Positions 1-62,362 of a DNA stretch of 64,000 nt are shown piece by piece. The DNA comes from Abyssibacter profundi (GTDB lineage Bacteria; Pseudomonadota; Gammaproteobacteria; Nevskiales; OUC007): contig NZ_QEQK01000003.1 in assembly GCF_003151135.1 (NCBI RefSeq), forward strand, positions 62,001 to 126,000, written 5' to 3'. The position numbers and the translations under genes were made by a program. Below the pieces are notes generated by a model, which searched no databases, was not told where the DNA came from, and was given only the letters and a program-made list of their open reading frames with translations. Every line of letters starts with the position of its first letter. Position 1 is the stretch's first letter.

Positions 1-327
1 CGTTCGCGATCGGCAGCGACGACCCGATCCATCGCCGGGCTGGGCGCGGCCATGGCGTTGTTGCCCTGCCCGGTGTTCTACGGGGTGCTCGGCTACGTGG
101 TGCTCACCGGGGATGTGCTGCAGGGCGGCTTGCTAGCCGGCTCGTTTGCCTTGGGCTCGGCCGTCGGTGTGGCCCTGGTGATGATCGCCGCCTCCTGGGT
201 CGCGCCTCGCCTTTCTGGCCGTGTCTGGCCTCGGCTTCGGGCCGGGATGACGGCTGCGGGCCTGTTGTTGGCGCTGGGGCTGGCCTGGGGCTGCGACTGG
301 GGGCGTTGGCTTTGCCAGCTGGGCTAG
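1..327 (+). CDS. TauE/SafE-family membrane protein, C-terminal part (5' end outside window)
   Basis: The reading frame is open from the first base, so the true start lies upstream; the ATG at 52 is internal. The visible 108 residues form hydrophobic segments with an LPCPVFYG motif, like the LPCGxVY signature of the TauE/SafE-type proteins found beside cbb3 oxidase and metal-handling genes. The downstream order (usp, then fnr and hemN on the other strand) matches the cco/fix-hemN-anr neighbourhood of many gammaproteobacteria, which supports the call. The role would be in the inner membrane, possibly copper or oxidase maturation; that is inference. The last base of the TAG stop (325-327) is the first base of the palindromic repeat that follows. 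Confidence 0.6.
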   Translation, partial: RSRSAATTRSIAGLGAAMALLPCPVFYGVLGYVVLTGDVLQGGLLAGSFALGSAVGVALVMIAASWVAPRLSGRVWPRLRAGMTAAGLLLALGLAWGCDWGRWLCQLG

Positions 328-382
328 GGAAGCACTGATTGATTCGCGCCAGCAAGACGGCGCGAATCAATCAGTGCTTCCC
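327..382. repeat. Minimal palindromic copy of the dispersed hairpin element (copy A)
   Basis: The arms 327-350 and 359-382 are perfect 24-bp inverted repeats separated by 8 bases. The arm begins GGGAAGCACTGATTGATTCG and is the terminal inverted repeat of the larger elements at 17130, 49235 and 61709. It is preceded by CTA, as in the other copies. It looks like an internally deleted copy holding only the two ends. It could also act as a terminator for the upstream gene, although it lacks a T tract. Confidence 0.85.
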
Positions 383-17129: not shown

Positions 17130-17546
17130 GGGAAGCACGGATTGATTCGCGCCACCAAGACGGAGCCGGTTTTCCCGCGAGCCCAGGCGGAGTGAGTGCC
17201 GCTTGGTCATTCCAAGCTAGTGAACGACACGAATGCGTATGGAACGCATTCGGACGGCCGCAGGCCGGCCCGAAGGGCGAAGCGCATGGACGCGCTTCGC
17301 AACGCAGGATCGCGGGAGAACCGGCCCGTTCCGTCAGGATTGCGCCTGCAAACAGGCCAGACTGCGTTAGTCGGCGCATCCATGCGCCTCCCCCGGTGGG
17401 CCCGCCTTCGGCGGTTTCAATTCGCTCCCGGCGAATCGGTACTCGTCGTTCATTTGGAATGACCAAACTTCGCTCCTCGCTCCTCGCGCCTTGCCTGGCC
17501 TGTTTGCAGGCGGCAACTTGGCGGCGCGAATCAATCCGTGCTTCCC
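17130..17546 (+). mobile_element. Non-coding multi-hairpin element, copy B (417 bp)
   Basis: Terminal inverted repeats of 30 bp (17130-17159 and 17517-17546) differ at one position. The interior follows the same order of hairpins as copy D at 61709. It carries about 72 extra bases near 17369-17441, themselves made of short hairpins (GGCGCA-TCCA-TGCGCC, CCGCC-TTC-GGCGG, ATTCG-CTCCCGG-CGAAT). CTA precedes it and TGGTGTAG follows it, as in copy C. No convincing coding frame or transposase is present, so it would have to be moved in trans. I see no clear target-site duplication. Confidence 0.85.
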
Positions 17547-29562: not shown

Positions 29563-32231
29563 GTTCACTGCCGCGTAGGCAGCTCAGAAAAACGCCATCC
29601 GCCGCAGCGCCCAGGGCGAAGCGTTCACTGCCGCGTAGGCAGCTCAGAAATGACTGATCGTCAGGTACGGCTTGACCATCGCGTTCACTGCCGCGTAGGC
29701 AGCTCAGAAATTCTGGTCCTTTCACTCCTGGCTGCTTTTCTCGTTCACTGCCGCGTAGGCAGCTCAGAAATCGGAAGAAAACTCTACAACGAGGCATTGA
29801 AAGTTCACTGCCGCGTAGGCAGCTCAGAAAACGCTGCAGGCGGCATTCACCCACGGCTGGCACGTTCACTGCCGCGTAGGCAGCTCAGAAAATGGGGCCA
29901 TGCCGGCGCTGCGGGCCGTGTCTGTTCACTGCCGCGTAGGCAGCTCAGAAAATGATCAGCGCCGGCAAGTACAAGACCGAGGGGTTCACTGCCGCGTAGG
30001 CAGCTCAGAAAAAAGAGCAAGCAGGCCAACGAAGAAGCACCAGGTTCACTGCCGCGTAGGCAGCTCAGAAAACGCGTTCATCGCTGCCATCAGCGACAGT
30101 GCTGTTCACTGCCGCGTAGGCAGCTCAGAAAAGAACACGCTGAACGAGGTGATCCAGCCTGGCGTTCACTGCCGCGTAGGCAGCTCAGAAAACCTCGCCG
30201 CGCTGGTTGAGCCACACGACGGAGTTCACTGCCGCGTAGGCAGCTCAGAAATCTCGGTGAAGCGATTTCCAGTAGTCGATGAAGTTCACTGCCGCGTAGG
30301 CAGCTCAGAAAGTTGATGTAGATGGTGGCGTTGCCGTCGTCGTGTTCACTGCCGCGTAGGCAGCTCAGAAAATCGACGCAACGACGCAGCGGCGGCCCTG
30401 CTGGTTCACTGCCGCGTAGGCAGCTCAGAAAATCGACTCGAACGACAGCGACTGCGGGATACGGTTCACTGCCGCGTAGGCAGCTCAGAAAAGATCGCGG
30501 CTGCGCTCGACAATGAGAATCAGGTTCACTGCCGCGTAGGCAGCTCAGAAAAGACCGACAAGAAGAGCACCGATTGGTGCGACGTTCACTGCCGCGTAGG
30601 CAGCTCAGAAAAGCGTCCACCCACTAATCTTCTCCACCACTTGGTTCACTGCCGCGTAGGCAGCTCAGAAATGCTCGCCTGCAGCACGTAGCTCGCTGGC
30701 CTCGTTCACTGCCGCGTAGGCAGGTCAGAAAGTGACGTGTGGCGATGTACGTGCGGCTGTAGCGTTCACTGCCGCGTAGGCAGCTCAGAAAAGGCGCTGC
30801 ACCGGACCCGTCAACCCGCCGCTGTTCACTGCCGCGTAGGCAGCTCAGAAAACCGCAGTTGCCGATCAGGCCGTCCCACTTGTGTTCACTGCCGCGTAGG
30901 CAGCTCAGAAAACAAAGGCGGCCAATGCGCCAACGGCCAGAATGTTCACTGCCGCGTAGGCAGCTCAGAAAATTTGCATTTGGCGTCGGCTTTCGGACCC
31001 TGGGTTCACTGCCGCGTAGGCAGCTCAGAAACTGCCGCGCTGCGGCCTCACGCACGGTACCGCGTTCACTGCCGCGTAGGCAGCTCAGAAAAGTGCCGAG
31101 CCCGTGAGGTGGCCGGGGATGATGTTCACTGCCGCGTAGGCAGCTCAGAAACACCACCGGCAGGGTGTCGGTCACCAACTGCCGTTCACTGCCGCGTAGG
31201 CAGCTCAGAAATACGACATCATCGACAGCGGGGGTGGGGTGCCGTTCACTGCCGCGTAGGCAGCTCAGAAAAGGAATCGTAGTTGCACACGCCGGCAATG
31301 TTGGTTCACTGCCGCGTAGGCAGCTCAGAAAAGCCACACGAACACCTCGCTGATCTTGCGCAAGTTCACTGCCGCGTAGGCAGCTCAGAAATCCCGATCG
31401 TGCGGCATCTCCAGGCGGCACCAGTTCACTGCCGCGTAGGCAGCTCAGAAATATCAGGTGGGCTGGCCGAATCGTGAATCCGTGTTCACTGCCGCGTAGG
31501 CAGCTCAGAAAATGCGGATGCCGGAGCCGTCCTCGTCCATCCAGTTCACTGCCGCGTAGGCAGCTCAGAAATTGCGCCGGATGATCCAGGAGGCACGTAA
31601 CGTGTTCACTGCCGCGTAGGCAGCTCAGAAATGAGCATGTGCGGCGTCCAGCCCTTCGTATCGGTTCACTGCCGCGTAGGCAGCTCAGAAAAGCCACGGA
31701 GCCGCCACCCGACCAGTGTGTCAGTTCACTGCCGCGTAGGCAGCTCAGAAATCGTCCTGATTCGCTCCCGCCCGCTGGGGACCGTTCACTGCCGCGTAGG
31801 CAGCTCAGAAAACTTCCTCGCAGCCGATGCCAGCCTCCAGTTGGTTCACTGCCGCGTAGGCAGCTCAGAAATGTGCCGCCGTCTCCGCCGTCGCCGCCAT
31901 CTCGTTCACTGCCGCGTAGGCAGCTCAGAAAAAGGAATGCGAGCAGGGCCATCAGGCCTGTGAGTTCACTGCCGCGTAGGCAGCTCAGAAAGGATGAGGA
32001 CTTCACCGCTATCCAGCGTTACCGTTCACTGCCGCGTAGGCAGCTCAGAAAATAGCTCGCGTGGAAAGGTGGCGGAACTCTTCGTTCACTGCCGCGTAGG
32101 CAGCTCAGAAAGACCCGCACAAGGGCCGGCAGATGACGGAAAAGTTCACTGCCGCGTAGGCAGCTCAGAAATATATCGCCGCGACGACAAGGGCGCGGTC
32201 GTCGTTCACTGCCGCGTAGGCAGCTCAGAAA
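29563..32231 (+). CRISPR. Type I-F CRISPR array, 45 repeats and 44 spacers
   Basis: The 28-bp repeat begins GTTCACTG, holds the stem CTGCC/GGCAG around GCGTA, and ends CTCAGAAA, the I-F class. I count repeats starting at 29563, 29623, 29683, 29743, 29803, 29864 and then every 60 bases to 32204. Spacers are 32 nt except spacer 5 (29831-29863), which is 33 nt. All repeats are identical except number 20 (30704-30731), where the base after the stem is G instead of C. The leader-distal repeat is intact. No two spacers look alike, and I saw none matching elsewhere in the window by eye. Confidence 0.98.
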
Positions 32232-49234: not shown

Positions 49235-49572
49235 GGGAAACACTAATCTACTCGCGCCGCCAAGTTGCTGCCTGCAAACAGGCCAGGCAAGGCGCGAGGA
49301 ATGAAGTTTGGTCATTCCAAATGAACAACGAGCAACGCAGTCTGGCCTGTTTGCAGGCGCAATCCAGACGGAACGGGCCGGTTTTCCCGCGATCCTGCGT
49401 TGCGAAGCGCGTCCATGCGCTTCGCCCTTCGGGCCGGCCTACGGCCGTCCGAATGCGTTCCGTACGCATTCGTGTCGTTCGCTGACTTGGAATGACCAAG
49501 CGGCACTCACTCCGCCTGGGCTCGCGGGAAAACCGGCTCCGTCTTGGTGGTGCGAATAGATCAGTGTTTCCC
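49235..49572 (-). mobile_element. Non-coding multi-hairpin element, copy C (338 bp)
   Basis: This is copy D (61709-62046) in the opposite orientation, with the same length and order of internal hairpins. Its ends begin GGGAAACACT, where most copies have GGGAAGCACT, and the change is mirrored in the opposite arm (AGTGTTTCCC). Flanks are CTA on the left and TGGTGTAG on the right, the right flank being shared with copy B. It fills the 403-base gap between DUF423 and the beta-barrel gene. Short frames inside are not coding. Confidence 0.85.
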
Positions 49573-51963: not shown

Positions 51964-52671
51964 ATGGTGGACGACCCGCGCAGACGCTGGCTGATCCGGG
52001 CGCTGGCGGGCGGTTGGCTGGGTGCGGCATGGCCGCGCGTGCTGCAGGCTGCGCCGTTTGGCCAAGTGCCAGCACCCCTGGGCCCAGAGCAGTCCGTGTT
52101 CCGCGTGGTGGGCGATGTTCGCGTCAATGGCGAGCCTGCCGACCGGCAGACCCGCATCGGCATGGACGATCACATCGAAACCGGCGAGCGCGGTGAACTC
52201 GTCGCCGTCGTGGGTTCGGATGCGTTGCTGATTCGTCGCCAGTCCAGCGTGCAACTCGGGCTGGGGCAGGCCAAGCAAGCGCTACGTTTGATCACCGGCG
52301 CGATGCTCTCGGTGTTCGGGCGCCGGACACGGCAATCACTGACCATCCACACGCCCATCGCCACTATCGGGGTGCGCGGCACGGGTGTTTACGCCACATC
52401 TGAGCCGGATCGTTCCTACCTATGCACCTGCTACGGCCGCACCGAACTGGCGGCGCGGGGCGAGCCCGGTGCTGTGGAGCAGATCACGGCCACCCATCAC
52501 GATGCACCCCGCTATGTGCTGGCCCAGCCTCGCGAGGGGCGCTGGATTGTGCCGGCGCCATTCATCGATCACAGCGATCTCGAGCTGCGCATGCTGGAGG
52601 CGCTGGTGGGCCGAGAGGTGCCGTTCACCATCACGGATGACCCCTACCTACGCCCTCGGCGCGACTATTGA
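51964..52671 (+). CDS. Tat-exported FecR-domain protein
   Basis: 235 residues. An N-terminal RRRWLIRALAGGWLGAA is a twin-arginine-like signal. The FecR-type jelly roll follows: GDVRVNGEPADRQTRIGMDD, HIETGERGELVAVVGSDALL and TIHTPIATIGVRGTGVYA. Such domains act in the periplasm in signal transduction or polymer binding. It is divergent from the permease/barrel pair, which it may serve. The last base of its TGA stop (52671) is the first base of element remnant E. Confidence 0.75.
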   Translation: MVDDPRRRWLIRALAGGWLGAAWPRVLQAAPFGQVPAPLGPEQSVFRVVGDVRVNGEPADRQTRIGMDDHIETGERGELVAVVGSDALLIRRQSSVQLGLGQAKQALRLITGAMLSVFGRRTRQSLTIHTPIATIGVRGTGVYATSEPDRSYLCTCYGRTELAARGEPGAVEQITATHHDAPRYVLAQPREGRWIVPAPFIDHSDLELRMLEALVGREVPFTITDDPYLRPRRDY

Positions 52672-52750
52672 GGAAGCATGGATTGATTCGCAGCGCCAAG
52701 TTGCTGCCTGAAAAGAGGCCAGACTGCGGGGCTCGTCGTTCATTCGGAAC
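52671..52750 (-). repeat. Degenerate, recombined remnant of the hairpin element (remnant E)
   Basis: The first 35 bases resemble the element end (AGGAAGCATGGATTGATTCG, then GCGCCAAGTTGCTGCCTG). The sequence then jumps to an internal part of the element (GGCCAGACTGCG, then CTCGTCGTTCATTCGGAA). The jump is at the 17-bp inverted motif that occurs twice inside full copies, suggesting recombination between them. Confidence 0.6.
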
Positions 52751-52762
52751 GAGGCCAGGGAT

Positions 52763-61538: not shown

Positions 61539-62175
61539 TCAGCGCTTATCCGGGCGCTGACGGGCCGCCCACCGGATGTGTCGCTGCACCGTTTCGTCAG
61601 CGCAGATGGCCTCCAAGGTGGCGTATTCACGGCCCAGCGTGACCTCGTCGAACTGTCGATGCAGAAAGCGATGGCACAGTCGACAAAGCCAGATGCCTCG
61701 GTGGCTAAGGGAAGCACTGATTTACTCGCGCCGCCAAGACGGAGCCGGTTTTCGCGCGAGCCCAGGCGGAGTGAGTGCCGCTTGGTTATTCCAAGTCAGC
61801 GAACGACACGAATGCGTACGGAACGCATTCGGACGGCCGTAGGCCGGCCCGAAGGGCGAAGCGCATGGACGCGCTTCGCAACGCAGGATCGCGGGAAAAC
61901 CGGCCCGTTCCATCAGGATTGCGCCTGCAAACAGGCCAGACTGCGTTGCTCGTCGTTCATTTGGAATGACCAAACTTCGCTCCTCGCGCCTTGCCTGGCC
62001 TGTTTGCAGGCAGCAACTTGGCGGCGCGAGTAAATCAGTGCTTCCCTGGGGTCTCCCGATCGTAGCGGCGGGCAAAGTAAGCCCGCTTGTGAACCTTGCG
62101 CGGGATCAGGTGGTGAAACTGCAGTGGCGTTTCGCGGCCACATAGCTGGCAGTGTTGGACGGTGGCGCGGGTCAT
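61539..62175 (-). pseudogene. HNH-nuclease-like gene split by mobile element copy D
   Basis: Reading on the minus strand from the ATG at 62175: TRATVQHCQLCGRETPLQFH, then HLIPRKVHKRAYFARRYDRE. The frame is then broken by the element (62046-61709). Beyond it, in another frame, HRGIWLCRLCHRFLHRQFDE continues to the TGA at 61539. The two CxxC pairs and HH motif are those of small HNH endonuclease-like proteins, one half on each side. Removing the element plus two bases restores a single frame. Confidence 0.8.
61709..62046 (+). mobile_element. Non-coding multi-hairpin element, copy D (338 bp), inserted in an HNH gene
   Basis: Perfect 30-bp terminal inverted repeats (61709-61738 and 62017-62046). 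The interior is a chain of hairpins: CTTGG/CCAAG, GAATGCGT/ACGCATTC, GCGAAGCGC/GCGCTTCGC and a perfect 17-bp pair at 61923-61939 and 61995-62011. No coding frame of interest. It interrupts the HNH-like gene listed above. Left flank CTAA, right flank TGGGG; no clear target duplication. Confidence 0.9.
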
Positions 62176-62362
62176 GGTGCCAGTGTAGAGCCTCGGTCAT
62201 GGCCATGGTGGGGAGCGACCCAATCGAGCAGGCCTGCCTTGCAATCGGGCCGCTGCGAGGGATCGCCTGCGCCCGACGTGTGCCTACACCAACTTGGCCA
62301 ATTGCCGCCAGCCCCTTGCGACCGGTACCTTTCCGGACACGACGATCAACTGGGGAGCCCGC

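Follow-up and report, generated by a model that had tools for sequence, protein, structure and literature searches.

A hairpin-rich, MITE-like element interrupts a distant HlpB-like HNH gene in Abyssibacter profundi

On the minus strand of an Abyssibacter profundi contig (NZ_QEQK01000003.1), two short coding segments, each with one CxxC pair, lie on either side of a repeated element. Are these segments the remains of a single gene that was split when the element inserted and, if so, what was the gene and what kind of element is it? A sequence-only reading of this DNA had proposed an HNH-nuclease-like gene divided by an element copy named D. We followed up this proposal within the window, that is, the whole stretch of 64,000 nucleotides analyzed, and in related genomes.

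Two halves of one gene flank a single element copy

The N-terminal half, defined by direct reading and by alignment to intact orthologues, extends over 62050..62175 (minus strand) and comprises 42 codons from an ATG at 62175; its translation, MTRATVQHCQLCGRETPLQFHHLIPRKVHKRAYFARRYDRET, includes the first CxxC pair (CQLC) and an FHHLIPRK motif. The C-terminal half, read directly and aligned to homologues, is located at 61539..61703 on the same strand and has 54 codons plus the stop codon; the translation of 61703-61542 is HRGIWLCRLCHRFLHRQFDEVTLGREYATLEAICADETVQRHIRWAARQRPDKR, with the second CxxC pair within CRLCHRxxH and the TGA at 61541-61539. Between them there is exactly one element, D (61709-62046, minus strand), together with a few flanking bases, so that the sequence-only reading was right about the positions, the description of both halves and the single copy separating them. 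D measures 338 bp from GGG to CCC, or 340 bp when the A/T beside each tip is counted, and, in the frame of the family alignment, it is oriented like the gene. The frame that begins at the start codon of the gene runs four codons into the element and then ends.

When the two halves were joined and used as a query against 61 related genomes, matches were obtained in 23 of them, the own genome counted. The best ones came from the two remaining genomes of the genus, each as one uninterrupted frame (L031 in G002 and L032 in G001), with about 68-69% identity to the joined halves over 94-95 residues (E 2e-44 and 1.5e-42). These two congeners are an Abyssibacter sp. MAG and an uncultured Salinisphaerales MAG. 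The intact orthologous proteins of the two genomes (G001, L032/L056; G002, L031/L057) are 97-98 aa long. In both genomes the orthologue lies between the genes for an M3 oligopeptidase and a GST and is convergent with the peptidase gene. The window shows the same arrangement, except that in both congeners a glycerophosphodiester phosphodiesterase gene, missing from the window (62176-62360), separates the HlpB-like gene from GST. At the DNA level, the aligned interval of the congeners, from CCAGATGCC to the conserved GTAGCG/GTGGCG, amounts to 24 bp, and the flanks outside the 338-bp element in the window add up to 26 bp. The excess of 2 bp over the ancestral length is the size of a TA duplication, indicating that the element inserted here. 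According to this bookkeeping the uninterrupted gene had 98 codons, within the 90-100 codons that had been predicted for an intact gene free of the element, and relatives that keep the segments always separate and never joined, the contrary outcome named beforehand, were not seen.

The presence of a CxxC pair in each half, and the fact that the N-terminal half is open and has its own start codon, could be taken to mean that two independent small zinc-ribbon-like genes flank the element by chance. Against this, the C-terminal half lacks a start codon in the homologous frame, the summed lengths equal that of the orthologue exactly, and relatives have both segments at this locus as parts of a single frame; the intact syntenic orthologues in G001 and G002 rule out separate genes or a chance similarity, and we assign this explanation a practically negligible probability. 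A repeat can also mislead an assembly by joining two unrelated contig ends. The assembly is a 47-contig draft that does break inside other copies of the element, as eight contigs (C2, C3, C4, C9, C13, C17, C18 and C25) end within one. At this locus, in contrast, both sides of the join carry the neighbors expected from the congeners (M3 peptidase and GST) and the halves complete each other; a misassembly, likewise ruled out by the intact syntenic orthologues, is thus highly improbable.

We are therefore confident that D, a TA-targeting non-autonomous element, transposed into a 98-codon HNH/HlpB-like gene, duplicated 2 bp and inactivated it. The ancestor of the genus would have had the gene between the M3 peptidase and GST genes, and D would have entered between codons 42 and 45, duplicating 2 bp and severing the second CxxC pair and the catalytic-type helix from the first CxxC pair and the HH motif, with the consequent inactivation. 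The disruption itself is an ordinary insertional pseudogene. It had also been taken as direct evidence that the element moves; a past insertion is indeed demonstrated, but present activity does not follow from it.

The interrupted gene was a distant relative of HlpB

The joined halves were barely over the gathering score of the Pfam HNH model (PF01844; 21.9 against 21.4 bits) and matched the NCBIfam HlpB model NF058586 along nearly its full length with 38.4 bits (E 1.3e-9). The equivalog cut-off of this model, 130 bits, was not reached by the joined halves or by the G001 orthologue (33.6 bits), and the four related proteins that were scanned all matched it, likewise far below the cut-off. Since the HNH score is just over its cut-off and the HlpB score far under, these profiles point to a distant HlpB-like, stand-alone HNH protein and not to a certified HlpB. 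B. subtilis HlpB (YisB) is also a stand-alone HNH-type protein of about 100 aa; the gene described here differs from it in its score, far below the equivalog cut-off, and in that its loss is tolerated with AddAB kept. The term "nuclease-like" used in the sequence-only reading is appropriate as far as HNH and HlpB-like homology goes, but this homology is its sole basis, and for B. subtilis HlpB no cleavage has been shown, as quoted in PMC3765158.

As modeled with AlphaFold2 (mean pLDDT 86), the intact orthologue forms strands at residues 18-22 and 47-51 and a helix at 52-61. According to this model, the insertion, at residues 43-44, would fall between the two strands of the predicted zinc/HNH core and part the CxxC pairs. 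Sequence and fold searches of the PDB gave nothing significant; the top fold matches of the model, Gme HNHE (PDB 4h9d, a Geobacter HNH nicking enzyme) and T5 SciA (PDB 9qgx), were weak, with E values of 0.3-0.7 and TM scores of about 0.3-0.5. PADLOC returned nothing convincing.

The halves remain readable and AddAB is kept

No stop codon or frameshift was found inside either half (96 codons), and the 16 columns that are invariant across 14 homologues (C9, L11, C12, H21, H22, L23, I24, P25, H29, C51, C54, H55, H59, E64, L67 and W89) are all kept in the two halves. Compared with the congeners, the halves showed pS values of 0.56-0.71, pN values of 0.20-0.21 and a pN/pS ratio of 0.30-0.37, against 0.21 when the intact congener genes were compared with each other. 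To judge from these ratios, the sequence fits a long period of constraint followed by a comparatively late loss. The insertion is not brand new, because the target duplication of D has decayed, its flanks now being AA on the left (61707..61708) and TG on the right (62047..62048), and because its nearest sister copies are about 4% different (96% identical). The earlier claim that the loss is recent enough to be readable still is borne out, with the qualification that the event is not very fresh.

We considered whether the gene might still work, either because the element is spliced from the RNA or because ribosomes bypass it with the help of a strong fold. D has a predicted folding energy of about -210 kcal/mol, the 98-codon frame is open once D and one copy of the target duplication are taken away, and coding constraint seems only slightly relaxed. 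An open frame after removal is expected, however, for any simple insertion without later indels; moreover, a mostly extragenic family of 47-419 bp is unsuited to act as a splicing unit, and no Rfam intron or ribozyme matched. It is very unlikely that a product is made in this way. On the preferred reading, an inactivating insertion, the search with the joined halves matched only these two halves in the own genome, and since no second copy was found, the function of the HlpB-like gene was probably lost.

The loss bears on a rule known from B. subtilis, in which hlpB is reportedly dispensable only when addAB has been deleted (Pediaditakis et al. 2012, quoted in PMC3765158). The AddB frame of the own genome is open (914 aa; TIGR03623, 371 bits, over the cut-off) and is adjoined by a 1148-aa PDDEXK_1 frame, which is probably AddA, and RecC is absent throughout the whole family. 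It would appear that the protein function was lost and that the gene is dispensable here despite the kept AddAB. Because AddAB is open while the hlpB-like gene is broken, the B. subtilis essentiality rule is not transferable to this genome: either the homologue has a different job or the dependency between hlpB and addAB is not general. Across the order, AddB scores over the cut-off in 24 genomes that lack an HlpB-like match. At this locus, a conserved HNH protein of the stand-alone type has been cleanly knocked out by nature with AddAB kept, which makes the rule testable outside Firmicutes. As a single event, its value lies in a dated insertion, a natural knockout and a lead to a broad element family, which deserves follow-up.

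Copies of the element in the genome

At least 31 of the 32 end bases of D are complementary to each other in its terminal inverted repeats. Hairpin 1 and a central mini-hairpin (61906..62020, minus strand) are a full match to model R1 (G000:C3:123906-124020:-). About 70 bp with extra small hairpins (61808..61879), recognized from the folds and from a gap between blast blocks (query 2-102 and 173-341), are absent from the 268-bp form of the element and lie within the loop of hairpin 2.

Comparison of repeats within the window revealed a longer form of the same family, copy B (17130..17546, plus strand), and a fragment (52665..52752, plus strand). Copy C (49235..49572, minus strand) has the 338-bp form, is inverted relative to D and is about 96% identical to it, and copy A (327..382) consists almost only of the two outer arms, forming a near-perfect palindrome. 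A 342-bp query yielded 99 blast pieces in the own genome, at about 40 places that represent copies or fragments. Complete copies measure 268, about 340 or 411-419 bp; in addition, there are palindromic miniatures of 47-58 bp, approximately two outer arms back to back (window 327-382; G000:C1:227593-227639; G000:C3:277866-277912; L152). The copies, whose lengths range overall from 47 to 419 bp, are mostly outside genes. D is not unique in breaking one, since L016 (G000:C21:20129-20396), a 268-bp copy with clean TA/TA flanks, interrupts a second gene: its joined flanks give a 736-codon frame for a hydrolase-like protein, with the junction at codon 466. Another copy, L011 (G000:C1:217665-218076; 412 bp), is located close to the 3' terminus of a frame resembling a dicarboxylate symporter, whose C-terminus it may have replaced.

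Target site and possible routes of transposition

D itself, flanked by AA and TG, shows no clean TA/TA, and its length bookkeeping fits a 2-bp duplication. Most complete copies in the own genome have TA on one or both sides. Among the 13 other complete copies outside the window, eight have an intact left-tip TA together with a right TA or a clean variant of it, and seven have TA/TA or depart from it by one base. The pattern is sharper in genome G292, which has about 45 near-identical 268-bp relatives: all 20 complete copies examined (L137-L156) are bordered by TA at either end, in the context YTAR (C or T ahead, G or A behind). A TA target duplicated on both sides, preceded by Y and followed by R, is the signature of IS630/Tc1-mariner elements. 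In vitro, 34 of 39 insertions of ISY100 went into TA and duplicated it normally, and a few were irregular (PMC2170065). IS630 is reported to prefer CTAG, according to the title of Tenzen and Ohtsubo 1991 (cited in PMC2170065), which resembles the YTAR preference here. A difference from IS630 and ISY100 is that the D family has no internal transposase gene. D is thus MITE-like: short, multi-copy, without a transposase gene, with inverted ends and with a TA duplication across the family.

By analogy with IS630/Tc1-mariner elements, which move MITEs in trans, D would have been mobilized by cut and paste by a transposase supplied in trans that recognizes the short GGG-rich tips. In the own genome, a draft whose contigs break inside copies, nothing was over the Pfam cut-off for DDE_3 (IS630) and there was no match to DDE_Tnp_1; a sub-threshold DDE_3 match proved to be an IS3-type ORF without the ends of the element and was discarded. 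Since contigs end in copies, the draft may conceal additional copies or even an autonomous one, for which GGGCCTGTTAACAC or GGGAAGCACTGATT ends would be expected. G292 likewise gave no DDE_3 match, and no pair of its element ends that would mark an autonomous copy was found 0.6-3 kb apart.

This result, along with the structured hairpins and the variable arm sequences, could suggest that the mover was instead a REP-associated (RAYT/Y1) transposase or used some other single-strand route. As in REPINs and RAYT elements, the copies are palindromic, non-autonomous, numerous and hairpin-forming; unlike these, they are longer and have long outer arms. Y1 elements are not known to leave a target duplication, the absence of which is also a criterion for REPIN/RAYT elements, whereas the D family has a 2-bp TA duplication with the YTAR preference seen in every G292 copy examined. 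We regard such a route as quite unlikely and favor double-strand cut-and-paste into TA.

A close likeness is to RUP of S. pneumoniae, Correia/NEMIS and ERIC (features tabulated in PMC2229807), which are also short, gene-free and multi-copy, with terminal inverted repeats, TA ends, TA target duplication and strong stem-loops. In contrast to this group, the D family has copies of 268-420 bp with a pair of inverted hairpins inside and outer arms that vary in sequence between copies yet stay paired, and it is spread over many gammaproteobacterial families. Furthermore, RUP shares its ends with IS630-Spn1, while for the D family no IS with matching ends was found.

Fold and distribution of the element family

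Within the order, 43 of 85 genomes have matches to the core of D. In full copies taken from ten further genomes, the outer arms differ (e.g., CTAGGGCCTGTTAACAC) but the fold is the same, with an outer stem, one hairpin, a tiny hairpin at the center and then another hairpin. The form common to the family is dyad-symmetric, is 268-271 bp long and has one outer stem plus two inverted hairpins. When 17 copies were aligned, changes on both sides were present in 72 of 93 pairs, 96.3% of the cells paired, and one-sided changes were almost absent. The covariation score was 0.610, compared with 0.187 (sd 0.010) after shuffling and at most 0.108 when partners were slid. The ten copies from other genomes were chosen for a visible outer inverted repeat; this choice biases the outer stem and leaves the inner hairpins unaffected, and the seven own copies are free of it. 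In these seven, arms from the same copy differ at 2.0 of 30 pairs and those of different copies at 5.2 of 30.

A covariance model of one hairpin, applied with a threshold of E 1e-5 or better, detected the family in 49 of the 274 gammaproteobacterial genomes sampled. In 36 elements, a second, inverted hairpin match was located 95-100 bp away, which means that the element contains one hairpin domain twice, in opposite orientations. The 86 matches gave a covariation score of 0.702 against 0.180 (sd 0.008), in an alignment that was fitted to the model and leans its way. The ratio of G-T to A-C mismatches in the stems was 18:12 for hairpin 1 and 42:16 for hairpin 2 (on its own strand), model-biased figures that indicate no consistent single strand.

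The fold could be kept by arm-to-arm palindrome correction or by selection on a DNA or RNA hairpin. Correction is the easier explanation, as slow selection through G-U intermediates would not readily account for the near absence of one-sided changes. Hairpin mismatch repair and template switching are two routes for such correction. In G292, the arm variants ..TTAACAC and ..TTACCAC occur both in matched and in mixed pairs, the pattern to be anticipated when a mutation in one arm is later followed by the other arm. Stem arms that change together bear on how palindromes are maintained in bacteria, by selection or by arm-to-arm copying. A more speculative proposal is that the family represents an undescribed mobile class defined by its dyad-symmetric fold and not by its ends, which moves through a folded single strand or has its arms rewritten during copying. 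We find this possible, if rather doubtful; if true, it would connect hairpin DNA with TA-targeted transposition in a new way.

The element matched no family in Rfam 15. In the open-access literature searched there was no sequence match to the family, and the strings of the repeat retrieved unrelated primers only. The family is widespread and apparently unnamed, perhaps described beyond the open-access text searched. No match to the element was found in phages, and three or four plasmid records carry it, in intergenic positions where genes are annotated.

Elsewhere in the window, at approximately 29563-32200, there is a CRISPR array with about 43 repeats of GTTCACTGCCGCGTAGGCAGCTCAGAAA at a 60-bp period, a repeat that we take to be type I-F-like.
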